Assembly (NCBI GenBank): GCA_024690635.1
Contig: JAILOW010000045.1
Location: 1-40,390, forward strand
Direction: 5' to 3'
DNA length: 40,390 nt
From: Butyrivibrio sp.
Lineage (GTDB): Bacteria > Bacillota_A > Clostridia > Lachnospirales > Lachnospiraceae
Positions within the stretch are counted from its first letter, which is position 1, and every line of letters begins with the position of its first letter. The position numbers and the translations under genes are program-made. Shown here piece by piece: positions 2,509 to 40,390 of the stretch. A model generated the notes under the pieces. The model did not search any database. It had not been told where the DNA came from and saw only the letters and a list, made by a program, of their open reading frames with translations.

Positions 2509-2534
2509 TTTTCATCCTCCGATACAGGTACCGG

Positions 2535-2551
2535 TTACATGAAAAATGTAA
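2535..2551 (-). other. Leader hairpin of the GH43 operon
   Basis: TTACAT and ATGTAA flank GAAAA, giving a perfect 6-bp inverted repeat between the predicted promoter (2575-2604) and the GH43 ribosome-binding site. It could be an mRNA hairpin or a protein-binding dyad, possibly the site of the ArsR-like regulator encoded downstream. Function is not established. Confidence 0.35.
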
Positions 2552-2574
2552 TTCATAATCTAAAAGGCAAATTC

Positions 2575-2604
2575 ATTATGCACACAAAAGCCCTCCCCGG
2601 TCAA
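2575..2604 (-). promoter_or_regulatory. Promoter of the GH43/regulator operon, overlapping a terminator
   Basis: Read on the minus strand, TTGACC (2604-2599, 5 of 6 to consensus) is followed by an 18-bp spacer and CATAAT (2580-2575, 5 of 6). Transcription would start near 2568, about 60 bases before the GH43 start codon. The -35 box coincides with the loop of the terminator hairpin of the upstream protease gene. Confidence 0.6.
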
Positions 2605-2613
2605 GAGAAGGGC
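2590..2613 (-). terminator. Terminator of S8 peptidase gene 1
   Basis: Minus-strand arms GCCCTTCTC and GGGGAGGGC pair over 9 positions, two of them G-U, with a 6-base loop, followed by TTTT. It lies 19 bases after the stop at 2632. The T-run is short, so termination may be incomplete. Confidence 0.6.
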
Positions 2614-2631
2614 GCGTCAGATCCCAAATAC

Positions 2632-7926: not shown

Positions 7927-7961
7927 AACACAACCTCCATATATATATAAACAATCATCAT

Positions 7962-7981
7962 ACTCTTTTTTCCAAAAGAGT
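7962..7981 (-). other. Hairpin in the 5' leader of S8 peptidase gene 1
   Basis: ACTCTTTT and AAAAGAGT form a perfect 8-bp inverted repeat with a 4-base loop, about 35 bases upstream of the TTG start. No T-run follows it on the minus strand, so it is not a typical terminator. It may stabilise the long mRNA or affect translation. Confidence 0.4.
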
Positions 7982-8002
7982 TTTTCGGGCACAATTCTCT
8001 TT

Positions 8003-8008
8003 AGTATA
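8003..8008 (-). promoter_or_regulatory. Possible -10 box for S8 peptidase gene 1
   Basis: TATACT on the minus strand lies between the terminator of the preceding gene and this gene's start. A TTGATT at 8028-8023 gives only a 14-bp spacer, so the -35 is uncertain. A promoter is expected here because the preceding transcript has a strong terminator. Confidence 0.3.
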
Positions 8009-8051
8009 ACCCCCAAAAAGCAAATCAAGTAATTAAAAAAGCATAAAATTT

Positions 8052-8085
8052 AGGGCTCTTTGCAAGAAAATATGCAAAGAGCCCT
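8052..8085 (-). terminator. Terminator of S8 peptidase gene 2
   Basis: A perfect 13-bp stem (AGGGCTCTTTGCA and its complement) with an 8-base loop lies 32 bases after the stop at 8118. On the minus strand it is followed by AAATTTTA. The two S8 genes are therefore probably separate transcripts. Confidence 0.75.
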
Positions 8086-8117
8086 TACTTATTTGAAATT
8101 ATTTTTCCAAAACCGGA

Positions 8118-13226: not shown

Positions 13227-13250
13227 AATAATCCCCCTCTCTCATATTTA

Positions 13251-13643
13251 TCAGAAACTAACAACTTCAGGTGCACTTGTAAAAGAACTAAAGGTTGCAG
13301 TAGCATCTTTCAGATAGAAAACTTCTGTATTTCCATCGTCTGCCTTGTACATGCCCTGCAGTGAAGGATAGGCATCAAGCATAGCCTGCTTGGCTTCTAT
13401 TCTGTCATCCTCAACAAGCGTTGCCGCAACTCTGAGCCACTGTCCGTCCTTGAAGGCACATATCTCAACCTTGGGATTTTTGTGTATCTGTTTTGAAACA
13501 TCCTTTACCTTGCCGGTCTGGATGTAAAGCTTTCCTTCAAAAATATTTGCTGTTCCAAAAGGCCTTACCCTTGGCTGATCTCCCTCAACTGTTGCAAGAT
13601 AGTAGGTCTGTGCCTCTTTTAAAAACTTTGCTACTCTTTCCAT
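13251..13643 (-). CDS. Pyridoxamine 5'-phosphate oxidase-like (PPOX) flavin-binding protein
   Basis: A small split-barrel protein of 130 aa. The start at 13643 (MERVAKFLKE) has AGAGAGG 7 nt upstream. The open frame extends 17 codons further, but no ribosome-binding site supports that. The fold signature is visible as YYLATVEGDQPRVRPFG near the N-terminus, GKLYIQTGKVKDVSKQI in the middle and KVEICAFKDGQWLRV after it, as in FMN- or F420-type PPOX proteins of anaerobes. The protein has no signal peptide and should be cytoplasmic. It probably heads a transcript that continues into S8 peptidase 2, 24 nt downstream, from an extended -10 promoter at 13714-13742. Whether it is an enzyme acting on flavin-dependent redox chemistry or a binding protein cannot be decided. 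Confidence 0.85.
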   Translation of the reverse strand: MERVAKFLKEAQTYYLATVEGDQPRVRPFGTANIFEGKLYIQTGKVKDVSKQIHKNPKVEICAFKDGQWLRVAATLVEDDRIEAKQAMLDAYPSLQGMYKADDGNTEVFYLKDATATFSSFTSAPEVVSF

Positions 13644-13692
13644 ATATGATCCTCTCTTTCTGTTATAGTCACAGCATAAATTGCATGTATCC

Positions 13693-13716
13693 AATTATTT
13701 CACGCTTAAAATAATT
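13693..13716 (-). promoter_or_regulatory. Inverted repeat overlapping the PPOX promoter, candidate operator
   Basis: AATTATTT (13693-13700) and AAATAATT (13709-13716) form a perfect 8-bp inverted repeat with 8 bases between the arms. The right arm overlaps the -10 box and the left arm lies just past the expected start of transcription. A repressor bound here would block the promoter. Confidence 0.4.
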
Positions 13717-13742
13717 ATACCAAGCTAAAGCAGGCATTTCAC
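13714..13742 (-). promoter_or_regulatory. Promoter of the PPOX/S8 peptidase 2 transcript
   Basis: On the minus strand GTGAAA (4 of 6) is followed by a 17-bp spacer and a perfect TATAAT at 13719-13714, preceded by TGG (an extended -10). The predicted start near 13707 leaves a leader of about 64 bases. Confidence 0.65.
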
Positions 13743-13784
13743 CCTATTTCTACGATATTTTTAAATGCTGATAAGAATAAAAAA

Positions 13785-13823
13785 AGAAGCCTATGATGTC
13801 TCGTTAGAGCATCACAGGCTTCT
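13785..13823 (-). terminator. Terminator of C1 peptidase gene 1
   Basis: The outer stem AGAAGCCT/AGGCTTCT (8 bp), one mismatch and a further 5 bp form the hairpin. It is followed on the minus strand by seven T. It lies 17 bases after the stop at 13841 and is the clearest intrinsic terminator in the window. Confidence 0.85.
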
Positions 13824-13840
13824 GTCAGTACTATTTCGTT

Positions 13841-16800
13841 TTATTGCCTTCCAAGACTCTCCTCGGGAGTGCTGCTTACAATAACTTTTATCCTCTTGGT
13901 GGTAGCACCTGCTGCCGAACCGTCGGATGCGGACATCACGATCACTGTCTCGCCTGCTGTCACAGCAGTTATCACACCTTTGGAATTAACTGTTGCAACC
14001 CTGGGATCAAGGCTTCTGTAGTTTACTGCGCTGTTTACCGCACGTTTTTTGGTCTTGGTATAAAGAGCTGTCAAAGCCTTTTCTTTTGCATTTCTCTTCT
14101 TATCAAAGAATGCCGCGGTAACAGGATTATTTTCCTCATCAAGACCGGCAAAGTAATCCGTAGTTGCCTTTAATGTGATGGTCTTTACCGTCTTTTTATC
14201 AAGATAGACTGTGTAGTCAAATGCAGGATCTTCTGACTTTTCAACCACCTTAACCTTGGTCTTTACCTTGTTTACGGTAACAGCCTTGGTAAGTGCTGCG
14301 GAGTAAGCTCCGTTCTCACCGTCAGTCTGATCCCAGCCAAGCTTGAGGTTCACATCTGTAACGTGAGTGTAGATAGTCAGAGTGCAGGTTGCTTTCTTAC
14401 CTCCGGGCGCTGTAGCTGTGAGCTTAACAATTCCGGGAGAGATAGCCTTTACTGCAAGTGACTCATCTTTTCCGGTAACGAAAGATCCGGTCTTGGGAGC
14501 AAGGTCCTCATATGCCGCATCATACATGGAAAGGACATTCTGCTTGGCGTATCCGTTCTTTGCCGCGGTAACCTCAGAGGTTTCGATAGCATAAACCGCT
14601 ATGGTTCCGGTGGATTTAGGATCTACAGTCCAGGTGATATGGCTCTTTCTGTCATCATTAAGTACAGCGTTATCGTAAATGCTCTCAGGTGTAACCCTTG
14701 CAGTTATCACATCATAGTGCCTGTAAGAAGAATCCCTGGTGCTGTTTCCAACCTTGGTGCTCATAAAGCCCTTAGTCTTATCCAAAGCCACCTTGGTGCC
14801 CGGAGCATAGACATATACATGTGCGTAGGACACAGCCTTACTCTCTTTATCACCGTAAGTCAGATTGGTGTTAACAGAGCTTGCCATAATATCAACTTCG
14901 CCGGTCTTAAGTGCAGTGACTTTTCCGGTTGAGCTGACCTTTGCCACTGTAGGATCCGACTCGGGCGAAAGGCTCCATGTAACCTTCTGGCTTCCCGCCT
15001 TGATCTTCTTGGTATCAGGATCTGTATAAACAACCGCCTTTAAGGTACTGCTCTTTCCGGTAGCAAGCTGAAGTGTCTTTGCTATCTTTTCTTCAGCAGA
15101 ATCCGATGCAGATTTGGTAACATCCTTTTTGCCGGAGAGGATCTGTACGTAGTTGGCTTCATTTACGATGGTGATATTGCATGTAGCGCTTACTTTGCCG
15201 TCAAGCTGTTTTACTATTACTTTGGCTTTTACCTTGCCGTCTGTAACAGAGTTATCGATGGCTTTGATCCCTACTTTATTCGGGGTTGAGTAGCCATCCG
15301 TGCAATGGCTGCTGCCATCAATTATGGCTCCCTCATCATCCACAAAGGAAATCTTATCAGCAGATGCCTCGGGAATCTCCCAAATAAGATCTCCATCCTC
15401 AGGCATGGTAGGCGTCAGGGTAGCAGAAACTACTGCAGTTGCTCCTCTTCCTATTGTGACGCTGCTTGAACTAAGCTTTATTTTGGAAAGCTTTTTATTT
15501 GTTACAGTCACATAGCAGGTAAGGGTTGTGGGCTTGCTCTTTCCATAAGGAGTAAACTGCGCGATAACAGGTATCTTTTTGGATATAGGCCATTCTTTTG
15601 CGGTTATGGTGCAGGAAGGACCAACTCCTGTAGTTCCGTCCGGAAGTTCCAGATAATCGTAATCCCTGTTGGGATATTTTAATCTCCACTGCACCTGATC
15701 CAGCAGATCGATTCCGACATTTTCACCCGTCACATGATTATCTTCACTTACTCCTGTTATAGTAGGAGTAAATATAGCATTCAAAGTATAGCTAAAGCCG
15801 GGAGCCATGGTTACGGAAGTTTTGCTCAGCTTAGCTTTCTTAAGAGGAACATAAACTTCTATTGTTTCCTCCAGAGAATGGATGGGCTGTCCTTCCTCAT
15901 CCGTATCGGTGGTGCTACTCGCAACAACTTTTATGGTTCCTTCTGCCTTGGCCTTTATGATGCCCTTGGAAGGATCAATTGTTGCGTACTGCGATCCTTC
16001 TGCAATTTCCCACTTAAGTCCTTTGTTTGCAGGCTGATCCGCTTTTTCTCCGTAGTTAAACTCTGCCACCATCTGTAGAGATTTTCCTACAGCAACTGAT
16101 GTGGCATGCTTTTTTCCGTATATCTCAATGTACTCAACAGGTGTTCCCACGGTTACGGTACACTTGGCACTCTTTTCGCCGTGAATAGTCTTTGCGGTGA
16201 CAGTTACTGTTCCGGGTTCATTACCCTTTATCAGTACCTTATTACTTCCAAGCTTGGAAATGGTAATTACACTGTCTTTTCCCTTGGTGACTTTATACTC
16301 AACTTCGTCACTAGCGGTGGTTGGAAGTATAGTCTTCGCTTCAAGGTATCCGCTCTGGCCTGCTCCGATCTTCAATGTCTTTTTATCAAGAGTAAGGCTG
16401 GTTACAGGATCGTAAACCTTAACCCTGAAGGCTGCCACAAGCTCAAGCCCATGAGATGTAGCTGTTATAACCGCTTCTCCTGCGCTCTTGGCAGTGATCT
16501 TGCCTGCGGAGTTTATGGTTGCGACAGCAGGATTTCCACTGGAATAAACTACAGTCTTTGTAGCTGTAGCAGGAGTTATGGCGGAAGTAACCGTAAGGCT
16601 CTTTCCTCTGGCAAGGATAACGCCGGTCTCATCTACTTCGGTTTTATAATTACTGGATGCCAGGATCCTTGGTGTCTTTTCTTTAGTGAGAACTTTAAGT
16701 TCCGATGCGTGAACCACATCAGGATCCAGAGTCTCAGGATTCCATACAACAACTTCGAAGGCTGCTCTACAGGAAGAGTTCACCTTGGAAGTCGCATAAA

Positions 16801-19800
16801 CCAAAGCCGTACCACCTGCATCTTCAGAGGCAGGAGCCACCTTGATAACGCCGGGATCAACGGTTTCCTCTAGTGTAATGACCTTGGGATCCGAAACAGC
16901 CCATTCAACCCTCTGATCTGCGATCTTTTCACTTTCTTCCGTAGGATTTACATCCTTGTATACTGTAGCCGATAATGTGAGCGATGCCTTACTTGTTTCG
17001 TTCTCTACAAGAATTCCGGGCACCGTATCATCCAAAAGCTCCTCTGCCTCAGTAACTTTCAAAAGAAGTCCGTAAGGAAGCACCTGATGGATAGTAAATG
17101 TCTTTACCACAGTCTTAGTCTGATCATTGTCCGCAGTAGCAGTGACAGTAACGGTTCCCTGAGCTTTTCCTGTAATGGTAAGAGTTCCGTCGGAATTTAA
17201 TGTCACATCTGCAGCTCCCGTAGGAAATACACAAGCGTATCTGGCATTATCCGGATCTTCATCATAATCTTTCCAGGAGAATAACTGCTCCGTCTCTTCC
17301 GGAAGAACAAGTGCAGAGAGCCTTATAGTCTCTCCGGTTTCAATTATGCTTGGAAGGATCTGATTTCCGGTAGGAGCATCCGTAAGGACTATGTCTTCAG
17401 CCGACTTTATCCATCTGGCGTACAAAGTAGTGTACGTGGTAATGGTATCCTGTTCGAAATTCCACATAGTCTGGAAAGTAGGATCGGAATACCAGCCTTT
17501 TAAATAGTATCCCTCTTTTGCAAGCTCAGAAGGTACAGACAGGTGATCACCATATTCAACGGTCACCGGATCAATATCATCTTCGCAGTAAGTTACAAAG
17601 CGAACCGTGAATTTCAGCTTTGCGTATTTTGCATAAAGAGTTATATCGCCTCTGTCAAATTTAGTAATAGCAGACTTTCTGCTTGCAGCCGAAAATGAGG
17701 GATCTGTATACCATCCGTCAAACCTGTAGCCCACAGGGGGTCTTGCATTATAAAGCGTTGTTCCGACTGATTCTGTATATTCAGAAGGGTTATCCGGATG
17801 CTGTGTTCCGTCTCCCAGCACATATGTTATAGAAGAAGTACCTGCAGTTACTGTGACTACTATATAATCATTAGCATTGCCCACATTGGTTCTTGCAGTA
17901 ATAATGGCTGTTCCTGCTCCTTTGGCGTAGATCTTGCCATTGTAAACTGTGGCAATGTCATCATCAGAGCTTTCCCAGATAAGCTTGCCGTAATTTGAAT
18001 CTGCAGGAAGAACCTCTGTTTCCACTACAAAAGAGTCATCTGCCTGAAGGGTGATCTTTTTATCCGTTACGTTTGTAAAAGAGATACTTCCAGGGGCGAT
18101 TACTGACTCTGAGCTAATGTTGTCTGTGTAAGCCTTGATCTTGAAGTTGCAGTTCTGTGATTGACCAAAATCTACCCAATTGCCACCAGAATAGTAAAAG
18201 CTCTGTCCCGCAGTCGCGCCTGCGTTGGACACTATAGAGCTATTATGAACACTTCGCTCGTGAGCAACAGTAACATTTTTCTCGGATTTTGTCAGTTTTA
18301 CAACCGCGGAAAAAGTATCACCATTCTCCAAAGTTACGTATTCGTCTAAATCAATAGTATACATTCCGGCATAACTGGTTTCTCCTTCTAAAGTGTCAAC
18401 CAGTTCTCCGCTTTCGGGATTATTTGCATCCGAAAGATTCTTGTACACATTAATGTTATAAGTCACATTTGAGGAGTCAGTGAAAAAAGAAACTGCTCTA
18501 AGACTTTCTAATCCCGATTCGTTTGAGGCATGAGCCGTAAAAACGTTCGCTGTTTTACCATACGCATCTCTTTTGTTGCTAAGCGCACCGTCATATTGGT
18601 AATTATTGTCATAATTTGAGGCACTTTCAAATTCACCGGCATAAGTATTTTCGCCCAGTGTAGCCTCATAATATGACATCCAAAAATATCCATTGTATGA
18701 ATATTCTTCATCGTAATCCCTGTAATAGCTATTGCGAACCAGAAAGGCGCCATCACCCGGGGGTGTCTTTTTAAAATTCTCCTTTGGAAAATTATCATCC
18801 CATCCTACTATTGAAACAGCGTGATTATATGTGCTTGCTACATCGTTGTAATAGCAATTATTTTCAGCATTGTAGCAAGAAGACTTAGCATAATACTGTA
18901 TTCCGGCTGCGCCATAGTTATATACAAATCTTTTTATAGAATCAGGATCATTATTTATAGGTTCAAAATAATAATTTTTTACATGACTTGTATCATTATA
19001 AGCAATTCCGCTATCCGGGGAATTGGAAAGAATCGTTCCGGCATTTGAGTAGGGAAGTGCTGACTCATCGGCGCATCCTTTCCAACTAGCCAATGCATTA
19101 AATGAATAGATGTATGTTCCGCCAACATGTAATATATCTTTGTCAGACCCTGTTTCTCCTTCATTATAAGTTATATCATCAGCAAGACCTCCAAGAGGAT
19201 CCGTTACCGAATTATTTGTAAAATATACTAAATGTAATTCTGAGAGATCAGGAGAATCCATTACATTTCTTTTTCGAAGACTCATTTCTGCCATGGCCGT
19301 GGTAGCAAATGCCCAGCATGTACCATACGGATTCTGATTTTTCAGAGATGAAAGATCTTCATTTACATAGTAAGACGGAAGAGCCGATGAACTGTACAAC
19401 CTTCTACGCCCTGCAGGAAGATCTTTGACACTCTCAAAATCCATAATGTCATCTTCATAGAGAGCTCCCGTTGCCATCTCGAAGTCTTCTTCTGTGGAAG
19501 TTTTTCCGGAAGAGCTTTCAGCCGCGGCGTCTGACGAACTCTCCGCAGCAGCATCAGATGAACTCTCTGCTGCCGCATCTGAAGAACTTTCGGAAGATGC
19601 ATCGGAAGGAGTATCTGAAGATTTCTCTTTAACTGCATCATCAGAGGTTTCTCTGGAAGCATCGTCGGAAGAAGCACCGGATGAAGGTCTGGAACTACCT
19701 GACGAGCCACTTCCGGAGCCGGAATCTCCGCCGGAGCCGCCTTCATCCTCTGTGGAAGCGCCTGTACCTGCTGATGAACCGCCTGAAGAGCCGCTGCCTG

Positions 19801-29350: not shown

Positions 29351-32300
29351 TTACTTCTTTACAGTAACCTTTACGGAGAACTTGTTACCTGTTGACTTCT
29401 TGGCCTGGTTTCTGTATTCAGTCTCAAGATTCAGAGTGTAGCTCTTTTCCATAACGATTGCTGAAGGACTTACGAGTGTCACTGTAGCAGTTCCCACCAT
29501 ACCCGGGTTCTTGGCAAGCTGTTCGGGTGTTGCAGGTGTAAATACAGGTTTTCCGAATGCCTTCTTGAGAGCTGCAGGAGTGTTGTCTGCAAGCTTTACT
29601 CCGATAATGTCAACGTTCTCTGAGTACTTCTTCTTATCAGCCTTGGTGATGACAATATCAAAGCTTCTGGTGGCCTGTCCTGCGTAGACAGTTACAGGCT
29701 TGGCATTGGTCTTTACCTTAGGAATAGACTGCTTGGGAACGATGGTGAAGTCCACATGCTGCTTTTTCTGGTTTTCATCACCCTTACTGAATATGTAATA
29801 AACTCTTATCTTGTACTTCTTGTTATTATCAACAACGTTTGTGCTGTCGGCTTTAACAATGATCTTGTTGCTGTTAGAAGGATCAGCTTCAACCACAAAG
29901 TGTGATTTTGCAGGATCAACGAAATCATCTCTTCCGTCAATCTCCTTGAATTCTACAAATTCGATCTTGCTGACAACGTTGCTGACAGATGCTGTGTAAA
30001 CAACCTTGGAGGTATCATCCACAGGATTGAGTTTTCCTGATGATTTCCACTTCACAGAAGGCTTAGCACTTCTTATCTTGATCTTGACTGAAAAAGGAAT
30101 GATCTCAGGCTCATCGGAACCTGCTGATACCTTAAGTCCCTTTACTGTGTAGGAAAGAGTCTTTCCTGCATATACTCTTCTGTAATCCTCTGAAAGAACT
30201 GCTGTAACCTTCTTATCAGCTGTTACAGTAAGGCTTTCAAGGATATCTGTTGCCTCGGGAGTGTTCTTGCCGGGAACAAGCTTTGAAACAAGATTGCCTG
30301 CATCCTCAACTTCTCCCTGAACTCCTGTAGGAAGATTTACTACTGAATAGGTTGTTGAAACCTCTTCTCTTCCTGCGTAATCGGTATTCATTGTAAGAGT
30401 TGAGCTCTTAAGCTTGATACCGGGATGCTTATTTACTACAACAACCTTGAAGGTAACTGCCTTGACCTGCTGAGGTGTACGGTCGCCATACTGGACCATG
30501 GGCTTTACACTGAAGGTATAGGTTCCTGCAGCGATTTCCTCATCAGGAAGGTTTACAGGAATAACATCTTTCTCGGAGATACTAGCCTTCATCTTTTCAA
30601 GGAGCTTTGCTCCGTCTGCAGCGAGCTTACCCTTGGTGGTACATGTGATATGGGATACATCCTCAATGTGTACTTCCTGAGCATCCTGATTGTGCTTGAT
30701 TGTAACTGCTGTGCCCTGGCTTGCATAAGCCTTATTAAGTGTTACTGTAGCTGCACTTACCTTGGCTGTAGGAAGGCTTCCTGTAGTCTTGAGATTAAAG
30801 GTAAATGCTATAGGCCTGCTCCACTTTTCAAGCTGAACATTGATAACTGCCTTACCCTTTTCAGGATATCCGTCAACTCCGAGAGTAATGAATCCATCCT
30901 CAATTGCTTCTTCCTTATCAAGAGGCTTGAACAGATCCTCTGTGGTGGAAGCTGCAAGTGTAAGAGACTTAAGCTCATTGCCTGCTTCGTCAAGAGCAAG
31001 CTCTTTCTTCTTGGTCTTTTTATCAACGATCCTTAATTCATAGCTCTGATTCTGCGCATTTACATTTGCAGTAACGGAAGTCTTTTTAAGTACAAGTGAA
31101 GGAGCTGTGTCATAGGTTGATATGGAAACAGACTTTGCAACCCAGTCTGCCATTCCTTCATACATGATGTAAAGGTATCCGGAAGTTACTGCCTTACCCT
31201 TGGAATTCTTCTGTATTGCCTCATTGCTTCTTGTTACGATGAACTTCTTATTGTCTTTATCATCGTGCGTGATATCAAAGTTATCTCTGAAAGGATCATC
31301 ATAAGAAGCAGGAAGCTTTATTCCGTACTTCTTGTAATTGGCTGTTGATACAAGAAGCTGATCCACAACCTTTACGTCCTTAAGGCTCTGAGTTACGGTA
31401 ACACTTCCGCTCATGTCAGAAGCCTGTGTGTAAAAGAGATTGATCTTGCCTGAAGTCTTTACTGTAGGGCTGTAAGCCTTGTTAGTAACTGTAACCTTCT
31501 TTATGGGAAGGGTAAATGAAAGGTTTGTCTCTTTAATGATACCTCTCACATAGAGCTGGCTGGTGCCTGAATAGGTCTTGGCAAACGGATGCTGAGTAGG
31601 ATCTTTCTTAATATAGATTCCATCAGTCTCATAACTTATCATAAGAGTGGTGCTATCCGTAAATACCTCCATACCCTTTTTATCTTTCTTGATAGTTCCA
31701 AGCCTGAGTTCACTTGATGTAGTTGGTTCTTTAATACTATAACCGTATACATTTACAAGGTTGAGCTTTGTTCCCACTGTTGAAAGACTGTTTACGGTGA
31801 TCTCATTGTTTGCAAGTCTGGGAGTGGAATCAACAACCCTTACGATAAAGCTCTTGGAATCAGCAAGTACATCTTTACCGTTTTCCTTATTATAAACAGC
31901 AACAGTTATAAGGCTCTCGCCTGTAGCACCTTTTTTTATGGTAACTGTATTTTTATTGTTAGTACTGCTTTTAGTAGCAAGTGTTGCAACCTTAGAATCA
32001 ACAGATGTCCACTTTGTTGTTACGATAAGATTCTTGGGTGGATCATCATCTGAAAATGTATCAACAGATACATCAAATTTCACTGTCTCACTGTCAACAT
32101 GAGCCTTAGTAAACTGAAGGATTTCCACCTCCGAATCACCCACAGCGGCTTTGGGATACTTTTCTTCAGAATCAAGCTTTATGCCCAATTTCTTAGCTAC
32201 CTTTTTATCTGGAAGCTCAAGTTCTAAATTCTTAATGTTTGATCCATTAGTAACTTTAGCATTGAGAGCAATTCTTTTGGAACCATTACCCTTAAATGTA

Positions 32301-34129
32301 ATATTGATAGTAGCAGTTCCTACTGCAACAGCTCTGACTATTCCAGTCTTTGTAACTTCAACAACCTTTGTGTTAGAACTACTGTAATTCCACATCCATT
32401 CATTTATAGGGACCTCTTTCTCTTTAAGAACAAGTTTTCCTTGTTCTCCAACGACATCAAAAACTAGAGTTTTTTTATCTTCTTTCAGATAAGGTTTCTC
32501 AATTTTTTGTTTACCTTCTTCACCTACTTCTTCAATAGAAACCTGTACATCTTTTATGCTCACATCATCTGCCTTTTTCATATTCACATCGATATGAACA
32601 TCCTCTCCTGGCATTTCAAATTTAAAGATCTGAGCTTTATCTGTAATATCTTCCAATTTCCAGTCGATTTTCTGTGAAGAAGCCTTTTCCTCTACCCTTA
32701 AGCTTTCAAGAATGTAGCCCGTTTTAGGTGCAATAGTAATTTTTACAGTATCATGCTTTTCAGCTTTCATGTTAACATTCAGAGATACTGTAGCCTTATC
32801 CTTGAAGTCCTTAGTGTTGAAATCAATATCATAAGTGCGAAGTGGTTCATATTTGTAGCCTCTAATTCCGGCGTAATCTTTAACCTTTCCACCGTAACCC
32901 TTGATAACTACCTCTGCTTTCTTTGGAAAAGCCTCTTCTGCTATAGAAAAGTCATCTGCGGAAGGCTCTTCATTCTTTATTGTAATCTGTATAAGCCCTG
33001 AGCATCCGTCCATTGCCCTATTTTCAATAGCTTTTACGCTTCGAGGGAATACAATTTTAGCAATCTTAGAGCAATCGCAAAAAGCTTCTGCGCCAACAGT
33101 GGTCACTAAACTGTTTTCGTCTCCAATGAAAACATCCACCAGTGCTGGGCAATTATAGAATAGCCTTTCTGGAATAGCACTCAACTTAGTAGGAAGCTTA
33201 ACATCATGAAGCGTATCATTATCTTTAAAACAGCCTCTTCCAATAGAGATGTCACCTGTAATTCCAGAAAGATCTACGCTATAGAATTTACATTTTTCAA
33301 AGGCCGCATGTCCAATACTCGTCAGACCCGAATTAAAGGTGAAGCTATTTAATTTAGTATTTTTGAATGCCGAATCCCCTATAACAGTAACATTTCTGCC
33401 ACCTGTCACAGTATCAAGACAATCTGCACCTTTAAAAGCCTCTTTCCCGATGGAAGTAATACTATCAGGAAGCTTTATGGATGTGATGTTACTACCATCA
33501 AAAGCACCTGCCTCGATTTCTACAAGTTCACTTCCTGGATCAAATGTAATATGCCTCCAGTTTTTTGTATCATCATCATTGAAGATACCCTTGGGAATAA
33601 CCTTACATGCTGCAGGTATCACAACATCAGCCTTTATTGTAGCCGTAGGAACCAGCTGCAATACGCCCTCTTCGTCAACTGTAAAGCAGGAAGATGCCTC
33701 TCCTGTAAGCGCCTCTTCATCTATTTCGATCTCAGGCTCTGATGCTTCCGAAGAAGCCGCATCTGCTGCATCCTCCGAAGCCTCGGAAGAAGCTGCATCG
33801 GCAGCATCCTCTGAAGAGCCTTCTGTGGAAGCCTCTGTCGCGGGATCTGTTTTTTCTTTTTCTGTGGAATCTTCTGTAGATGCTTCATCCGCAGGATCTG
33901 TAACTTTCTCGGATGAGCCTTCGGATGGATCCTTTGTGGAAGCTTCGCCTGATCCCTCTTCAGTGGAAGCTCCTGCGGAAGCCTCATCGGAAGCATCCTG
34001 TGATGCCTCTGCTACCGCTTCGTTTGTGATAAGATCATCCATATTGGTTGTTGCCGCCAAGCTGGAGAAGCTTGAGGTAACTATCATCGCTGCACTTAAG
34101 GACACAGCTAACAATCTCTTAATATGCAC
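29351..34129 (-). CDS. Secreted BspA-like leucine-rich repeat protein with tandem C-terminal modules
   Basis: A 1592-aa secreted protein. The start chosen is GTG at 34129, with GGAGGAGG 7 nt upstream; an upstream GTG at 34156 would swallow that site. The signal peptide is residues 1-26 and the acidic Ala/Ser/Glu linker about 34-135. Residues about 165-395 are LRR_5 (BspA/TpLRR) repeats, with recurring IGKEAFKG, IGDSAFKN and IGHAAFEK. Residues about 435-520 resemble a bacterial beta repeat and about 525-630 a Big_2 domain. From about 769 to the end are seven copies of a 110-125 aa module that I do not recognise, each starting with a Pro followed within a few residues by Lys/Ser/Thr-rich strands. 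No anchor is seen. LRR_5 proteins often mediate adhesion or binding; that role here is inferred. Confidence 0.85.
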   Translation of the reverse strand: MHIKRLLAVSLSAAMIVTSSFSSLAATTNMDDLITNEAVAEASQDASDEASAGASTEEGSGEASTKDPSEGSSEKVTDPADEASTEDSTEKEKTDPATEASTEGSSEDAADAASSEASEDAADAASSEASEPEIEIDEEALTGEASSCFTVDEEGVLQLVPTATIKADVVIPAACKVIPKGIFNDDDTKNWRHITFDPGSELVEIEAGAFDGSNITSIKLPDSITSIGKEAFKGADCLDTVTGGRNVTVIGDSAFKNTKLNSFTFNSGLTSIGHAAFEKCKFYSVDLSGITGDISIGRGCFKDNDTLHDVKLPTKLSAIPERLFYNCPALVDVFIGDENSLVTTVGAEAFCDCSKIAKIVFPRSVKAIENRAMDGCSGLIQITIKNEEPSADDFSIAEEAFPKKAEVVIKGYGGKVKDYAGIRGYKYEPLRTYDIDFNTKDFKDKATVSLNVNMKAEKHDTVKITIAPKTGYILESLRVEEKASSQKIDWKLEDITDKAQIFKFEMPGEDVHIDVNMKKADDVSIKDVQVSIEEVGEEGKQKIEKPYLKEDKKTLVFDVVGEQGKLVLKEKEVPINEWMWNYSSSNTKVVEVTKTGIVRAVAVGTATINITFKGNGSKRIALNAKVTNGSNIKNLELELPDKKVAKKLGIKLDSEEKYPKAAVGDSEVEILQFTKAHVDSETVKFDVSVDTFSDDDPPKNLIVTTKWTSVDSKVATLATKSSTNNKNTVTIKKGATGESLITVAVYNKENGKDVLADSKSFIVRVVDSTPRLANNEITVNSLSTVGTKLNLVNVYGYSIKEPTTSSELRLGTIKKDKKGMEVFTDSTTLMISYETDGIYIKKDPTQHPFAKTYSGTSQLYVRGIIKETNLSFTLPIKKVTVTNKAYSPTVKTSGKINLFYTQASDMSGSVTVTQSLKDVKVVDQLLVSTANYKKYGIKLPASYDDPFRDNFDITHDDKDNKKFIVTRSNEAIQKNSKGKAVTSGYLYIMYEGMADWVAKSVSISTYDTAPSLVLKKTSVTANVNAQNQSYELRIVDKKTKKKELALDEAGNELKSLTLAASTTEDLFKPLDKEEAIEDGFITLGVDGYPEKGKAVINVQLEKWSRPIAFTFNLKTTGSLPTAKVSAATVTLNKAYASQGTAVTIKHNQDAQEVHIEDVSHITCTTKGKLAADGAKLLEKMKASISEKDVIPVNLPDEEIAAGTYTFSVKPMVQYGDRTPQQVKAVTFKVVVVNKHPGIKLKSSTLTMNTDYAGREEVSTTYSVVNLPTGVQGEVEDAGNLVSKLVPGKNTPEATDILESLTVTADKKVTAVLSEDYRRVYAGKTLSYTVKGLKVSAGSDEPEIIPFSVKIKIRSAKPSVKWKSSGKLNPVDDTSKVVYTASVSNVVSKIEFVEFKEIDGRDDFVDPAKSHFVVEADPSNSNKIIVKADSTNVVDNNKKYKIRVYYIFSKGDENQKKQHVDFTIVPKQSIPKVKTNAKPVTVYAGQATRSFDIVITKADKKKYSENVDIIGVKLADNTPAALKKAFGKPVFTPATPEQLAKNPGMVGTATVTLVSPSAIVMEKSYTLNLETEYRNQAKKSTGNKFSVKVTVKK
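33725..34030 (-). repeat. Acidic Ala/Ser/Glu linker of the leucine-rich repeat protein
   Basis: Encodes residues about 34-135, rich in Ala, Ser, Glu and Thr (EASTEDSTEKEK, ATEASTEGSSED). It includes the same SSEDAADAASSE stretch as S8 peptidase 2 and ends EIEIDEEAL, resembling the EIxEEL end of the S8 linkers. Confidence 0.75.
33740..33811 (-). repeat. 36-bp tandem duplication coding EDAADAASSEAS twice
   Basis: Two adjacent 12-aa units are identical in protein sequence but differ at several third codon positions (for example GCC/GCT and TCT/TCG). As in C1 peptidase 1, the peptide is preserved while the codons have drifted. Confidence 0.8.
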
Positions 34130-34198
34130 TTTTTTTCCTCCTCCAATAAAACGCACAAAACTTTTTTAAAGCACAAAATATACTTATAGTTATGATAT

Positions 34199-34306: not shown

Positions 34307-37300
34307 TTATGGGATTTCCTTCTTTATACCCTCCCAGTCAAGCTCCAACAGGCAGTTGCGGATCCTTTCAAAGCGCTTGGAATCCTCTGGCGAAACCCTG
34401 TACTCCTTTACGGAATCAAGAACCATGAGAATCGAGTCATAGTCCTCTGCTCCCGCGAACTCAGAAAGGCCTTCGTAGGCATCCTTCAGCATACCCTCGT
34501 CAATCTCGGGAAGGTCATCATCACTTTGCTCTATGGGCTTTAGTATCTCCACATATTTCCTGTACTGTTTCAGGAGATTTCCTGTATTTTCCGTAATGAA
34601 GCCCACATTACTTTCTTTGCCGGCTTCCTCCAAAGCCCTTGCCTTTTCAGACAATTCCAGTGCTCCCACGATCCTTGCAGTGGACTTAAGGGCATGGACC
34701 TTGATGGTATAGTTTCGTATATCATGCTCGTCGTAGTAGCCTTCGATCTCATCAGCCTTGGCATTTATGGAGGTATAAAATCCCTTCAGGATATTCAGAT
34801 ATTCTTCCGTTCCGCCGCAGTTTTTAATACCGGCTTTGGCATCTATATCCTTACAATCCGTAATCCAGCCCGGAAGCTCAGAAACATCAGCTTCAGTACC
34901 GTCATCCTCATCGGGTGCCTTGGCGATGACCACCTTGTCCTTGGGCAGGCATACAATGAGTAGCTCTTCCAGTTTATCAATATCTATGGGCTTTGTGAGA
35001 TAGTCATCAAAGCCCTCCGACATATACATCTCTCTGGCTCCGGAAATCGCATTGGCCGTAAGGCAGATGGTTGGAGTATCACCGTTAGGTCCGCCGGAAA
35101 CAGCACGCATCTCATGAAGGGTCTGTATTCCGTCCTTTTCAGGCATCATGTGATCCAGGAATATAATGTCGTAGCGTTTATCTGCCGCCAGCTTAAGAGC
35201 TTCATCACCGCTGATGGCAGTATCTATCACCATCTTCGTGCCCTTCAAAAGATTCTTGAATACATCAAGATTGGTCTCCGTATCATCCACAACCAGCACA
35301 TGAGCAGATGGAGCAGTGAATTTCTCTTTGTATTTTTTCTGCCCTTCCATTGCCTCTTTGAAGGCTTCACGATAATTACCAAGAGGCTCCCACTTGGTCA
35401 CCTTTTGTTTTAATCTAAAGCCAAACTCCGAGCCTTCGCCGTATGTACTTTCAACCTTAAGGGACGAGCCCATCATCTGCAAAAGCTGCATGGTGATGTT
35501 CATGCCAAGGCCGGTGCCTTCGATGTTTCGGTTTCTCTCAACCTCGATTCTTTCAAACTCCGTAAAGAGCTTTTTCATATCCTCAGGTTTGATACCTATT
35601 CCCGTATCTTTTACAGAGACTATGATAAAGACATTGTCAGGCTCACCCTCTGCCTTTTCAAAGTCCATGGAAAAGGTAACGCTGCCTTTTTCCGTATATT
35701 TCACGGCATTGGTCAGTATATTTGTTATGATCTGCTTTACCCTGACTTCATCACCAAATAAAAGCTTTGGCATCTTTTCATTAAACTCAAGCTTAAGCTC
35801 AAGCTTTTTAGCCGTTGCCTTGGACTGGATCATATTTACCATATCGTTTATGACAGAAGCCAAGTCATATTCAACAGGCACGATCTCAAGTTTTCCGGCT
35901 TCGATCTTGGAAAAATCAAGTATGTTGTTTATAAGCCCCAAAAGAGTATTGCCGGCGATTCGCACATTCTGGGCATACTCCACCACATCTGGCTCCATGC
36001 TCTCTCTCAGGATCATCTCATTCATGCCAAGAACCGCATTGATGGGAGTTCTGATCTCATGAGACATATTTGCAAGAAAAGAGCTCTTGGCTCTTGTAGC
36101 TTCCTCGGCAATAGCCTTTTCAATCTCAAGCTCATTAACCATGGCCTTTTCGTAGTAGATACAGTTTTCTTTGTGGTTAAATCCGTTATGGATGGCGGTT
36201 GCCATCTGAAGGCAGCTGTCATATCCGCAGCAGGTACAGTCTATATGCCTGCTGTCCTCGGTGAATTTGTTCATTGAGGCAAATATCTCCTCAAGCTGCT
36301 TTTCATTCGGGATCTCGTAGCTGCATTCGGCGGATCTGTCAGTATATTCCCTTATATAATCATCCAGGCTTAGATTCTTAAACTGCTCATTATAATGAGC
36401 AAGCCTCTCTGCAGGGGTATCACACCTTGACCAGGCATCTCCGCTTTTTTCTTTCTTGGAATTTTCCCTTATATCAAGAAGGGCATAAAGAGCATCATCC
36501 GTCTTTGATTTTTCAGGATTTACGGCAGTTCCGCAGATGCATCCCTTCTGGCAGTTAAGCGCATCTATAAAAAGAAAAGGCGTCTTTTCCTCTTTTATCC
36601 TGTCTTCATTCTGATGGAGCCACTCATAGAGATGGCGCTCTCCCTCGATCTGTCTGATATAGACCTGATCTCCCAAAAACCATCTGACATTTTCCGCAAG
36701 TCCTCCGGGAGTTGGGTAAAACGAGCCAAGGCCATACTCGATCTCGCTATGCTGCGCGGGACCGCTGATGCCATGCTCTCTCACATATTTCATGAGATGC
36801 TCAAAGGTCACATTGTACTGAACAAGGCCCTTGTTGTGAGGATCTTCGATCTCCAGCTTTTTTGCTATGCACGGGCTTATAAAGGCAAACTTATCCGTAA
36901 TGCCCATTTCTTTTCTTGCATATTTAGCTGCACACATAAGGGGACTTTGAACAGGAAAGAGCTTTGGCAAAAGCTCAGGGATATATCTTTCGATATAAGA
37001 AACAACAGCAGGACAGGGCTGGGAGATCCCACCCTTAAAGTCGTGCTTTTCAATATAATTAAGGTAACCCCAGGTGGTGATATCCGCACCAAAGGATACA
37101 CTTATGATCCGCTTTACGCCCAGCTTTTTAAGACCACCTAGGACGCTGTCATACTCATCCGGATAGTTGGCCTTAAAGGCAGGAGCAAGTAAAAGAGATA
37201 TCTCCTCTCCCTTTTCAAGATCTTCAAAAAAGCTCAAGGTATCGTCAAGGTATTCCCTGGCTCCGTGAACGCACACATCGATACAGCTTCCGCAGGCAAC

Positions 37301-37438
37301 GCATTTACTGGGATCAACATCTATCCTAGCCTTGCCGTTTTCCTCTTTGGAAATACAGGCGCCAATGGCACTGCAGACCTTGATACACTTGTTACAGCCT
37401 ATGCAATTGTCATTTGTATATACGATGCTTTTATTCAT
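34307..37438 (-). CDS. [FeFe]-hydrogenase-like sensor fused to hybrid histidine kinase (receiver and Hpt)
   Basis: A 1043-aa cytoplasmic protein with no membrane segment. Two [4Fe-4S] ferredoxin motifs come first (Cys12/15/18/22 and Cys46/49/52/56). The H-domain (about 78-370) keeps the four H-cluster ligands Cys142 (SQPCPAVV), Cys190 (SPCIAKK), Cys296 and Cys300 (LNCQKGC). The neighbouring proton-transfer Cys of catalytic enzymes (TSCCPAW) is Pro141. An Fe-S motif follows (CTCCGYDSC, Cys426), then a helical linker, HisKA (His460 in SHEIRTP), HATPase (Asn577, DTGIGI, GTGLGM), a receiver (Asp718/719, Asp762, Thr794, Lys816) and Hpt (His915 in HALKS). It likely senses H2 or redox state and feeds a phosphorelay; no PAS domain or output regulator is present. 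The ATG lacks a good ribosome-binding site. Confidence 0.9.
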   Translation of the reverse strand: MNKSIVYTNDNCIGCNKCIKVCSAIGACISKEENGKARIDVDPSKCVACGSCIDVCVHGAREYLDDTLSFFEDLEKGEEISLLLAPAFKANYPDEYDSVLGGLKKLGVKRIISVSFGADITTWGYLNYIEKHDFKGGISQPCPAVVSYIERYIPELLPKLFPVQSPLMCAAKYARKEMGITDKFAFISPCIAKKLEIEDPHNKGLVQYNVTFEHLMKYVREHGISGPAQHSEIEYGLGSFYPTPGGLAENVRWFLGDQVYIRQIEGERHLYEWLHQNEDRIKEEKTPFLFIDALNCQKGCICGTAVNPEKSKTDDALYALLDIRENSKKEKSGDAWSRCDTPAERLAHYNEQFKNLSLDDYIREYTDRSAECSYEIPNEKQLEEIFASMNKFTEDSRHIDCTCCGYDSCLQMATAIHNGFNHKENCIYYEKAMVNELEIEKAIAEEATRAKSSFLANMSHEIRTPINAVLGMNEMILRESMEPDVVEYAQNVRIAGNTLLGLINNILDFSKIEAGKLEIVPVEYDLASVINDMVNMIQSKATAKKLELKLEFNEKMPKLLFGDEVRVKQIITNILTNAVKYTEKGSVTFSMDFEKAEGEPDNVFIIVSVKDTGIGIKPEDMKKLFTEFERIEVERNRNIEGTGLGMNITMQLLQMMGSSLKVESTYGEGSEFGFRLKQKVTKWEPLGNYREAFKEAMEGQKKYKEKFTAPSAHVLVVDDTETNLDVFKNLLKGTKMVIDTAISGDEALKLAADKRYDIIFLDHMMPEKDGIQTLHEMRAVSGGPNGDTPTICLTANAISGAREMYMSEGFDDYLTKPIDIDKLEELLIVCLPKDKVVIAKAPDEDDGTEADVSELPGWITDCKDIDAKAGIKNCGGTEEYLNILKGFYTSINAKADEIEGYYDEHDIRNYTIKVHALKSTARIVGALELSEKARALEEAGKESNVGFITENTGNLLKQYRKYVEILKPIEQSDDDLPEIDEGMLKDAYEGLSEFAGAEDYDSILMVLDSVKEYRVSPEDSKRFERIRNCLLELDWEGIKKEIP

Positions 37439-37551: not shown

Positions 37552-38571
37552 TCAGTAGTTCATGATCTTTTCAAGCATATCCATCTGACCGGCGCAGTAT
37601 TTATCGTAAACCTTCCTCATGGCTTCTCTGAATTTCGCCTTTTCGTCAGGGTTTAGTTTTATAACTGTTGTGCCGCTCTTTTCTGCCACCTCTCTGGAGG
37701 TCTTTTCGCGCTCTGCCCAGAGCTGTCTTTCCAAAAGAGCTGACTCTCTGCCGCATTCCACAAGGATCTCCCTGTCCTCTTTACTTAGCATGTCCCAAAC
37801 CGCCTGGGAACAGATCTGAAGCTCGGGAACTCTTGTATGCTCATCTACTGTATAGTACTCAGCTACTGCGTAGTGTTTCATAGCCTCGTAGGAAGGCCAG
37901 TTGTTTTCGGCTCCGTCAACTATTCCCTGCTCAAGAGCAGAGTAAACTTCGGAATAAACGATCTTTACAGGATTTGCTCCAAGGGCTGAGACCATGTCCG
38001 CCATAACCGCAGACTCCTGGACTCTTATGTTCATTCCCTTAAAATCCTCTATTCCCATAATGGGCTTGCCGTGGCTGTAGAAGTTTCTGGCACCTGCATC
38101 ATACCAGGAAAGTCCCACAAATCCATGCTCAGGAAGCTTTGTCAAAAACTCATCACCGATCTCTCCGTCCAGGACTCTCCACATGTGGTCGGAGTTTGAA
38201 TAAATATAGGGCATTTGCAGTATGTTCATCTCAGGAACATATTCAGCAAGCTGTGAAAGAGATACTCTGGCAAATGCGATGCCGCCGTACTTCATCTGCT
38301 GGATGACTTCGCTCTCACTTCCAAGCTCCGCCCCGTATTTTACGATTATCTTTATCCTTCCGTCTGTGCGCTCATTTACAAGTTCTGTAAACCTGTAGGC
38401 ACCCTTGGTGGTGGGATAATCCTCTATCTGGTTTTCGGCGTAATAAAGCACATGCTCAGGTGCTTTTTCAGCCTGTGCCTTTTTTCTGCCGTTCATGATC
38501 ATAAATGCGGCGCCTACCATGAGCAAAACTGCAGCAATGATAAGACCCGCTACTATGTATCTTTTTTTCAT
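37552..38571 (-). CDS. DctP-type TRAP solute-binding protein, membrane-anchored, no permease nearby
   Basis: A 339-aa extracytoplasmic solute-binding protein of the TRAP/DctP family. Residues about 5-27 are one hydrophobic segment without a lipobox Cys, so it is probably a signal anchor. The binding fold follows, with EVIQQMKYGGIAFARVSLSQL, NILQMPYIY and the family hallmark Arg183 in FKGMNIRVQES, which holds the carboxylate of organic acids or sugar acids. ENNWPSYEAMKHY lies near 222-234. The ATG overlaps the stop of the response regulator gene (ATGA), so the two are translationally coupled. No DctQ or DctM subunit follows; the next gene is the hydrogenase-like kinase. It may present ligand to the YesM-like kinase as a sensor partner, or work with a permease encoded elsewhere. 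Confidence 0.85.
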   Translation of the reverse strand: MKKRYIVAGLIIAAVLLMVGAAFMIMNGRKKAQAEKAPEHVLYYAENQIEDYPTTKGAYRFTELVNERTDGRIKIIVKYGAELGSESEVIQQMKYGGIAFARVSLSQLAEYVPEMNILQMPYIYSNSDHMWRVLDGEIGDEFLTKLPEHGFVGLSWYDAGARNFYSHGKPIMGIEDFKGMNIRVQESAVMADMVSALGANPVKIVYSEVYSALEQGIVDGAENNWPSYEAMKHYAVAEYYTVDEHTRVPELQICSQAVWDMLSKEDREILVECGRESALLERQLWAEREKTSREVAEKSGTTVIKLNPDEKAKFREAMRKVYDKYCAGQMDMLEKIMNY

Positions 38572-39359
38572 GAGCCTGTAACCTCACTCCTGTACTCACT
38601 TGGAGTTACGCCAACCATTCTTTTGAACACTCTTGTAAAGTAATTGGCATCTCTGTAGCCTGCTTCCGTGCTGACATCCTTTATATTGATCATGGGGTCA
38701 GCCAAAAGCTCTTTTGCCCTGTTCATGCGAAATTCATTGAGGTAGCTGATAAAGTTCTTGCCAAAATTCTGTTTGAAAAGCTTGCAGAAATACACATCCG
38801 AATAGCCCAAAACTCCGGCTACATCCTGAAGGGAGATATCTTCTTTGTAGTGATTTCTGATGTATTCTCCCGCCTCTCTTACAAGACTGTTGGATACGTT
38901 TGCATCACCGTCACCTGCCATTTTTGCAGCATCTTCCGGCGAAAGAGAAGCATCCGCATTCTCCGTATTTTCTCCCCTTGCCACTTTGTCGGCAATGCTG
39001 AAGGCTTCATCAATTACCGCAATAAGGTCCTCATCGGATCCGGGCTTTAAAAGATAGTCCAGCGCCCTTACTTCTATCGCCTTCTTGGCATAGGAAAATT
39101 CATCAAAGGCTGTAAGGAAAATGATGCTGCAATCCTTGTTCTTTTTTCTGATCTCCTCTGCGGCTTCAAGTCCCGTCATACCCGGCATCTCGATATCAAG
39201 GACCGCCACCTGGCAGTCATGTTCAAAAAAGCTCTCCACCGCCAAAAGGCCGTTCTCAGCCAGAAAAACCTCAGCCTGTTCTTTGTAATGTTTAGTTATC
39301 TTTTTGTAGACCACCTGTCTTTCGATAGGCTCATCGTCTGCAATGAGTATCCTGTACAT
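38568..39359 (-). CDS. YesN-like response regulator, receiver plus AraC-type DNA-binding domain
   Basis: A 263-aa cytoplasmic regulator. The receiver (about 1-120) has the acidic pair Asp8/Asp9, phospho-acceptor Asp55 (AVLDIEMP), Thr83 and Lys105 (LLKPGS). A variable linker (about 125-155) precedes an AraC/XylS double helix-turn-helix (about 160-258): ISLQDVAGVLGYSDVYFCKL for the first and IKDVSTEAGYRDANYFTRVF for the second. The start has GGAGG 5 nt upstream, inside the end of the kinase gene. Genes of this kind control uptake and degradation of sugars in Firmicutes. Its partner is the kinase at 39361; the solute-binding protein gene, coupled by a 4-nt overlap, suggests that extracellular solute is the signal. 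Confidence 0.9.
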   Translation of the reverse strand: MYRILIADDEPIERQVVYKKITKHYKEQAEVFLAENGLLAVESFFEHDCQVAVLDIEMPGMTGLEAAEEIRKKNKDCSIIFLTAFDEFSYAKKAIEVRALDYLLKPGSDEDLIAVIDEAFSIADKVARGENTENADASLSPEDAAKMAGDGDANVSNSLVREAGEYIRNHYKEDISLQDVAGVLGYSDVYFCKLFKQNFGKNFISYLNEFRMNRAKELLADPMINIKDVSTEAGYRDANYFTRVFKRMVGVTPSEYRSEVTGS

Positions 39360-39360
39360 C

Positions 39361-40390
39361 TCACTCCTCCGGATCCTGACGGATCACTTTGTTGTAGGGA
39401 ATCCTGATACTGATCTTTGTTCCCTTGTCTTTTTCCGAATCTAATTCAAATGCGGAATCCTGATACATGGATCTGATCCTTCTGTTGATATTTCCAAGTC
39501 CGATTCCCACAACATCCTTGTCAAGCACGGTTTTGTCCGCCTTTTCTTCAAGCTGCTGACGGATCTTTTCAAGAACATCTTTTTCTATTCCTATACCTGT
39601 ATCCTCTACGGTTATGATCAGTTCATCTCCTGATCTGTTGATGGATACGTCAACGCGTCCTCCCTCAACCTTGGGTGAAATGCCGTGAATGATGCAGTTT
39701 TCCAAAAGAGGCTGGAAGGTAAAGGTGGGCACCATTACATTGTCGGCGTCCACTCCGCATTTTAAGTCAAAAGAAACTCTGTCTCCGAATCTCATCTTCT
39801 GAAGATACATGTAGTCTCCGGCAATTTTGAGCTCCTGAGAAAGCAAAGTTTCTTTTTCCTGAGTTTTAAGATTATATCTGAAAAGCGAGCTCAGGGCCCC
39901 TATCATCTGCTCCGTTGTGGGAGCATCCTCAAGGTTTGCCATGCCGCCTATTACATTCAAAGTATTGAAAAGGAAATGAGGATTTATCTGGCTCTTTAAA
40001 AGCTCCAGATTCATGGTCTCAAGCTGTTTTGCAGTTTCAAGGTTTTCAACCTCTCTTGCATGGAGCTGATCCAGTGCGATCCTTCTTTCCTCAAGGGCAA
40101 GGATATACTCGCCCGTAGCGTATTTCATTTTGTTGAAGGCCATAACCAGTTCGCCCAGTTCGTCCTTGTTATCAACATGAATATCATCTGTGAAAAAGTC
40201 GTTGTTGGCGATTCGTCTTGATGCGTCCGCAAGCTTTAAGACAGGCTCTGTAATGGTCTTGTCCATCATGCGGGACACCTGGAAAGCCATGATAAATAAA
40301 AGAACCGAAAGACCTATCATCAGATAGGGAATAAAAGAGATAAGGGGCAGATAATTGTTGTATCTGCTGTTTCCCTCGTTCATTGTGATA
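39361..40390 (-). CDS. YesM-like sensor histidine kinase, partial (5' end outside window)
   Basis: The C-terminal 340-odd residues of a sensor kinase. The frame stays open to the right edge, and an ATG at 40383 has no ribosome-binding site in view, so the true start lies beyond the window. Counting from that ATG: membrane helix (about 11-36), HAMP (about 37-90), coiled coil, His_kinase domain with phospho-acceptor His136 in NPHFLFNTLN, and HATPase with QPLLENCIIHG, DTGIG and GIGLGNINRR. This is the YesM/LytS-type architecture; an extracellular sensing domain is expected in the missing part. It ends 1 base before the start of the response regulator. It likely responds to a carbohydrate or organic-acid signal, perhaps through the solute-binding protein in the same operon. 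Confidence 0.9.
   Translation of the reverse strand, partial: ITMNEGNSRYNNYLPLISFIPYLMIGLSVLLFIMAFQVSRMMDKTITEPVLKLADASRRIANNDFFTDDIHVDNKDELGELVMAFNKMKYATGEYILALEERRIALDQLHAREVENLETAKQLETMNLELLKSQINPHFLFNTLNVIGGMANLEDAPTTEQMIGALSSLFRYNLKTQEKETLLSQELKIAGDYMYLQKMRFGDRVSFDLKCGVDADNVMVPTFTFQPLLENCIIHGISPKVEGGRVDVSINRSGDELIITVEDTGIGIEKDVLEKIRQQLEEKADKTVLDKDVVGIGLGNINRRIRSMYQDSAFELDSEKDKGTKISIRIPYNKVIRQDPEE

Follow-up and report, generated by a model that had tools for sequence, protein, structure and literature searches.

The closest described relatives of the protein studied here are the sensory [FeFe]-hydrogenases (HydS). According to the available text of PMC8163306, TamHydS of Thermoanaerobacter mathranii (group D, M2e) combines two N-terminal clusters, an H-domain and a C-terminal Cx2Cx4Cx16C motif, has lost Cys299 and carries M353->Ser and M497->Leu; it is a stand-alone protein with no kinase in its chain. 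Group C (M2f) enzymes, such as TmHydS of Thermotoga maritima and HydS of Ruminococcus albus 7 (RUMAL_RS17375), have the same module order followed by a PAS domain, and in R. albus a SpoIIE-type phosphatase is encoded by a separate adjacent gene. That HydS modules work with signalling proteins is a known idea: in the available text of PMC5037454, the HydDB subtypes C1 (histidine-kinase-linked), C2 (chemotactic) and C3 (phosphatase-linked) are proposed to sense H2 via kinases or methyl-accepting chemotaxis proteins (MCPs), and they are described as transcribed with differing regulatory elements, not as single-chain hybrid kinase, GGDEF or EAL fusions. Here we describe a gene from Butyrivibrio sp. 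(assembly GCA_024690635.1, contig JAILOW010000045.1, positions 1 to 40,390, referred to as the window) in which a HydS-type module is joined directly to a hybrid histidine kinase with a histidine phosphotransfer (Hpt) domain. The HydS partners described in the accessible parts of the literature are PAS-linked or separately encoded, and no description of a single-chain hybrid kinase or of a range of fused outputs was found there, the subscription papers being mostly outside reach.

The gene and its parts are as follows.

34307..37438, minus strand: whole gene read 37438->34307 from an ATG start, HydS-type module, hybrid histidine kinase and Hpt, 1043 amino acids (aa) and stop (open reading frame (ORF), Pfam)
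37259..37426, minus strand: two [4Fe-4S] ferredoxin motifs, residues 5-60 (Pfam Fer4_6/Fer4_7)
36530..37189, minus strand: [FeFe]-hydrogenase H-domain, residues 84-303 (PF02906, profile alignment, model and fold match)
36155..36244, minus strand: C-terminal Fe-S domain Cx2Cx4Cx16C, residues 399-428, with C401, C404, C409 and C426 (PF04060)
36107..36160, minus strand: helix 427-444 between the last Fe-S cysteine and HisKA, beyond which output domains differ (DSSP of the model; a signalling role is presumed)
35894..36091, minus strand: HisKA with the phospho-acceptor His460 (Pfam, conservation)
35405..35755, minus strand: HATPase_c (Pfam; N, G1 and G2 boxes)
34961..35299, minus strand: receiver with Asp762 (Pfam, conservation)
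34607..34780, minus strand: Hpt with His915 in HALKST (weak Pfam match under cut-off; conservation)

The H-domain is recognised by Pfam as Fe_hyd_lg_C with an E-value of 9e-29 (101 bits, cut-off 22.1) and the C-terminal Fe-S domain with 23.6 bits against a cut-off of 23. Behind them HisKA (450-515), HATPase_c (562-678) and Response_reg (714-826) score 64, 84 and 80 bits, respectively, while Hpt (887-944), at 20.2 bits, stays under its cut-off of 24.6. The signalling half has all the elements of a hybrid histidine kinase with Hpt: an H-box at 458, an N-box at 573, the G1 box DTGIGI at 611, the G2 box GTGLGM at 641, the receiver motif LDHMMP at 761 and the phosphotransfer histidine of HALKST at 915. 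No PAS domain was found behind the C-terminal Fe-S domain at an E-value of 0.001, where HisKA follows instead. The original prediction, made from the sequence alone, had proposed a direct fusion of an H-domain to a complete phosphorelay and an extra cysteine-rich Fe-S motif; the Pfam order and the intact boxes bear out the former, the latter is PF04060, and all its residue numbers are correct.

Conservation was followed in an alignment of 93 rows, i.e., the query and 92 relatives of 1030-1085 aa out of 119 listed. Every row keeps the ferredoxin cysteines (12, 15, 18, 22, 46, 49, 52 and 56), the H-domain residues C142, C190, C296, C300, P141 and K193 (Lys at CpI 358) and the C-terminal cysteines 401, 404, 409 and 426, the last four also being invariant in a second alignment of 89 rows (A2). 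His460 and Asp762 are likewise present in all 93 rows and His915 in 87. The mean identity of the 92 relatives to the query is 86% in the H-domain, 87% in the ferredoxin part, 86% in the Fe-S domain, 77% in HisKA, 66% in HATPase, 65% in the receiver and 49% in Hpt, values biased by the ranking of the relatives on the module itself.

In a profile alignment of the module to solved [FeFe]-hydrogenases, C142, C190, C296 and C300 align with the four cubane cysteines of the H-cluster, and Pro141 aligns with the proton-relay cysteine (Cys299). It is thus clear, as had been predicted, that the cubane cysteines are kept and the relay cysteine is replaced. Pro is found at position 299 in about 10% of sensory enzymes, as stated in the available text of PMC10055695. 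Ser188 and Leu294 occupy the positions of CpI Met353 and Met497, so the residues of group A catalysis (Cys299, Met353, Met497 and the proton path) are not found, and TIGR02512 reaches 90 bits against a cut-off of 406. Together with the C-terminal Cx2Cx4Cx16C these exchanges agree with the predicted HydS type of the H-domain. The proposed comparison of structures also supports the assignment, as the modelled module matches the hydrogenase fold, which is the fold of the PF02906 family. A single-sequence AlphaFold2 model of residues 1-445 had a predicted local distance difference test (pLDDT) score of 36.2 and was discarded. Two extra cysteines lie near the H-cluster motifs, Cys169 (window 36932-36934, minus strand) in 92 of the 93 rows and Cys302 (36533-36535, minus strand) in all of them; both are absent from R. 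albus HydS and from a group-D-like row.

Compared with the described enzymes, the module shares with group D the absence of PAS, the Cx2Cx4Cx16C motif and the M353->Ser/Thr exchange. However, the group D pairs R30/R32 and E392/D393 (available text of PMC13104023) are missing, since T414/A415 are found and there is no N-terminal Arg pair, as mapped by Cys offset without the TamHydS sequence. R. albus HydS is 27% identical to the fusion over residues 1-431, but it retains Cys at position 299. In a quick 49-row tree, which gave long-branch warnings and in which we set the group C and D labels of the comparison rows from motifs, the module family branches on its own (SH-like approximate likelihood ratio test 100), apart from the PAS-type and group-D-like rows. 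From these sequence features, the module is expected to work like HydS, and it is filed in neither group C nor group D because it has no PAS, lacks the Arg and Glu-Asp pairs and branches separately. On the output side, BarA, TorS and ArcB have the same HisKA-HATPase-receiver(-Hpt) order and are among the best NCBIfam matches, all far under the cut-offs. Their inputs are membrane or PAS domains, while the input of the fusion is the H-domain module.

Residues 1-445 were used as a protein query, and 4859 of the 7998 matches scored had E<=1e-10. Among the matches listed, HisKA was present in 120 of 120, and those with a named source are from Lachnospiraceae; among shorter relatives, looked for separately, fusions of the module to GGDEF and to MCP domains came up. 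At the genome level, 80 of 227 confirmed loci were kept, and domain seeds were run against them by BLAST to type the outputs. HisKA, HATPase, receiver and Hpt follow the module in 32 loci (two cut by the contig end, two with a Cache-kinase-receiver part ahead of the module), while the others have MCP (24), GGDEF and EAL (9), GGDEF (3), the kinase type without HATPase (6) or without Hpt (3), or are cut before the output is complete (3). The search for this domain order in other Lachnospiraceae, suggested in the original prediction, thus finds it at separate loci of isolates and metagenome-assembled genomes (MAGs), but as a widespread arrangement and not as a one-off. The 11 kinase rows group with the 3 GGDEF rows in the tree, with support, and 2 of the 9 MCP rows are closest to this group.

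The match to the query stops at residues 429-445 in 79 of the 80 loci, where the upper bound of 445 is the end of the chosen query; the remaining one, the contig-cut L045, stops at 402. In L065, L041 and L004, GGDEF or HisKA starts 12-22 residues past the Fe-S match, and in the model helix 427-444 goes from the last Fe-S cysteine toward HisKA. There is therefore one joint at helix 427-444 with several outputs behind it. Since relatives attach the same module to other signalling outputs, it probably serves as a sensor of hydrogen or redox state that can be exchanged between proteins. By its description, HydDB subtype C2 would suit the relatives with MCP outputs.

Several variants were seen among the relatives. 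HATPase is absent while HisKA, receiver and Hpt are kept in L004, L007, L010, L011, L024 and L054, as well as in P0009 and P0019; such versions would need a partner kinase for phosphorylation. Four proteins of 1492-1497 aa (L035:7679-12166, L036, P0027 and P0120) have a Cache-domain kinase part ahead of the HydS module and HisKA again after it. The MCP-fused HydS of Roseburia hominis An869 (L048:10001-11314) is interrupted by an in-frame stop within its ferredoxin part, and in this genome HydF is over the cut-off and HydE and HydG are not.

We suggest that the fusion is a one-chain sensor phosphorelay with a HydS-like input whose state is passed by conformation to the kinase, a reading that we hold with fair confidence. 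The protein is probably cytoplasmic. Residues 1-430 would form the HydS-like module, with two ferredoxin clusters, an H-domain whose pocket is altered and a C-terminal [4Fe-4S] domain. Its state could be set by H2, provided that the H-cluster is complete, or through the ferredoxin clusters by low-potential electron carriers, and this state may cause a conformational change in the C-terminal Fe-S domain. The change would then travel via helix 427-444 into the HisKA dimer and set the autophosphorylation of His460, from which phosphate would pass to Asp762, to His915 and to a putative unlinked response regulator. The earlier claim that H2 or the redox state at the H-cluster controls phosphorylation survives in part. 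Sensing by the module is likely, given the intact pocket and the chemotaxis-type paralogues beside hydE-hydG-hydF, but H2 as the signal found no support in the distribution of the maturases. The arguments for and against H2 itself as the signal in this organism are evenly matched, and the presence of the [2Fe] subsite is also about even.

The points that weigh against this reading come mostly from the maturases. From 48 of the 80 loci, which we picked, 47 carrier genomes were reached and scanned for HydE, HydF and HydG; the genomes labelled G were requested at completeness 90, with values per genome unconfirmed. HydG is over the cut-off in 21, HydF in 24 and HydE in 24, and 21 of the 47 have none of the three. 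Among the eight isolates named in the records, three have none (XBB2008, Butyrivibrio CB08 and AB2028), three have all and two are partial. The rows nearest to the fusion in the tree are mixed, as the isolates CB08 and XBB2008 are without any of the three over cut-off, and in the MAG of L001 HydE and HydG are found and HydF is not. Pfam found no hydrogenase domain in the 12 other large ORFs of the window. Further, H2 leaves the C-terminal cluster of TamHydS unreduced, as reported in the available text of PMC13104023, and this argues against a plain wiring of electrons to the kinase.

A larger set of 278 genomes from the family of Butyrivibrio CB08 gives the same picture. It contains 55 carriers at a BLAST E<=1e-60, which admits relatives of 31-45% identity; HydE was left out of these searches, and the best 5, 6 or 9 candidates per genome were scored, depending on the search. 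Carriage of the module and presence of HydG are unassociated in this set (26/55 carriers vs 96/223 others, Fisher p 0.65), and both HydG and HydF are missing from 25 of the 55 carriers. With a stricter carrier cut-off of E<=1e-140, HydG is found in 20/43 carriers vs 102/235 others, and 21 of the 43 have neither.

These distributions fit the strongest alternative, an Fe-S-only redox sensor in which the H-domain holds a [4Fe-4S] cubane without [2Fe] and the kinase reports the ferredoxin or redox poise, not H2. The pocket adds to this. The comparison used 20 rows of maturase-complete genomes (19 of the 20 represented) and 20 rows of maturase-free genomes (20 of the 21 represented); alignment A1 excludes five loci whose ORFs are cut off (L018, L031, L037, L039 and L045). 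A loss of pocket residues in the maturase-free genomes was looked for and none was found, the examined positions being equal in both sets apart from a Leu/Met change at 167 once in each and a single Tyr302 among the maturase-complete rows. The strongest of up to 445 columns is position 40 (p 0.00016, uncorrected), which lies outside the pocket. The pocket is thus kept where no known route makes [2Fe]. However, K193, S165-P166 and C300, which are relevant to [2Fe], are kept as well, and this would be unexplained if [2Fe] never binds.

Three further observations speak against the Fe-S-only sensor. First, an MCP-fused HydS lies directly ahead of hydE-hydG-hydF on one strand in G016 (L088:3063-8810), and the same order is seen in G019 C147 and G023 C100 from coordinates and ORF lengths; this paralogue and hydEGF look like parts of one operon. 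Second, some of the maturase-free genomes are incomplete, because 5 of the 21 show no rpoB match either; rpoB is over the cut-off in 12 of these 21, and in 35 of all 47, where 40 have any match. Third, PF02906 is found at E<=1e-53, which is all that "A/B-type" means in this set, in 256 of the 278 genomes, and at least 101 of those have neither HydF nor HydG, so absent maturases may not mean an absent H-cluster. The canonical group A L2 and L3 motifs are also present in MAGs without HydE, HydF and HydG. For the genomes with PF02906 but neither HydF nor HydG, the readings are many dead hydrogenases, missed genes or another maturation route. Overall, we find the Fe-S-only sensor doubtful, though it is the most serious competitor of the one-chain phosphorelay with a HydS-like input.

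That the protein is instead an active hydrogenase, with phosphorylation controlling its catalysis and information flowing in reverse, is very improbable. HydS enzymes do turn over H2 slowly (available text of PMC8163306), but the group A proton path is lost: besides Cys299->Pro, Glu279-Glu282 fall in a gap and Ser319 stands opposite Phe161 in the profile alignment, with CpI numbers counted by us. The swapping to MCP, GGDEF and EAL outputs also fits an input and not catalysis. A chance arrangement, or an assembly artefact or frame error joining two genes, is refuted, practically to the point of certainty, because independent loci in named isolates and MAGs share the domain order; one ORF encodes the module followed by HisKA, as well as a receiver, at 41 of the 80 loci, and 92 of the 119 listed relatives are of full length.

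Carriage of the module independent of HydG, with an unchanged pocket, implies either redox sensing without the [2Fe] subsite or an H-cluster built in another way. As a side observation, nitrogenase-like and Hyp genes seem to take the place of HydG in many relatives. In L109 (G038, isolate LC2019; 1424-17438), hydF and hydE lie beside NifH/NifD/NifK-like genes, hypD, hypE and hypF, and in L110 (G065; 3557-13999) hydF lies beside NifH/NifD/NifK-like genes, hypD, hypE and a TM1266 regulator, with hypF assigned by eye only. Across the 278 genomes, a NifD-like protein (E<=1e-40) is found in 28 of 34 with HydF but no HydG and in 2 of 119 with both (p 1.5e-22 within those with HydF), in 0 of 3 with HydG only and in 3 of 122 with neither. 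In 21 of 33 cases, HypD is no more than 12 kb from the NifD-like gene. Judged by gene content, the NifD-like and Hyp genes look like a stand-in for HydG, in which the CO/CN ligands would come from a nitrogenase-like/Hyp route. The absence of HydG in acetogens has been reported with other explanations, in the available text of PMC9431212. No description of a nitrogenase-like stand-in was found in the literature, where subscription papers were mostly outside reach and HypD was not a search target.

From all this it can be speculated, tentatively and somewhat short of an even chance, that the module is an H2/redox input cassette of gut Clostridia, spliced ahead of at least four kinds of output, which in nearly half of its carriers has no [2Fe] or has [2Fe] made by a route other than HydE/HydF/HydG.

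Upstream of the fusion gene, the window contains three co-directional genes identified by Pfam, the nearest of which is separated from it by 113 bp.

37552-38571, minus strand: DctP-type binding protein
38568-39359, minus strand: AraC-type response regulator
39361-40389, minus strand: HAMP histidine kinase

They were considered as functional partners and rejected, because this arrangement is not seen near other kinase-type fusions, none of the three having a match above 60 bits beside any of them in the 80 loci. DctP has no match above 60 bits in any flank, many of which are cut by contig ends, and regulator or kinase matches above 60 bits occur only next to MCP- or EAL-type fusions (L047, L051, L069 and L078). 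Seventeen kinase-type loci are flanked by a hybrid kinase whose receiver and Hpt are separated by a DegV domain (tblastn >=181 bits; e.g., L008:3762-9970 and L004:12696-19035). The DegV domain is of a fatty-acid-binding type. This neighbour is often accompanied by a protein of about 254 aa, in which Pfam finds one receiver only, at the C-terminus, and by a further histidine kinase-receiver protein. A search of the window for these three shared neighbours gave only receiver-level similarity. A promoter and terminator scan gave no evidence, with 4 promoter-like sites vs 6.5 expected and 5 terminator-like sites vs 3.5. Elsewhere in the window, four giant genes (2632-26543, minus strand) encode two subtilase and two papain-type proteases with Ig-like domains, the papain-type proteins additionally with lectin-like domains, and a BspA-type leucine-rich protein lies at 29351-34156.

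H2 is a key product of rumen fermentation, and how HydS passes on its signal is left open in the available text of PMC8163306 and PMC13104023. With the kinase on the same polypeptide as the module, signalling from H2 to phosphate can be tested directly. Carriers with and without maturases but with an equal pocket are a natural test of whether [2Fe] is needed for sensing. Finally, through the fusions of the module to MCP, GGDEF and EAL, H2 would be linked to movement and to cyclic di-GMP as well.

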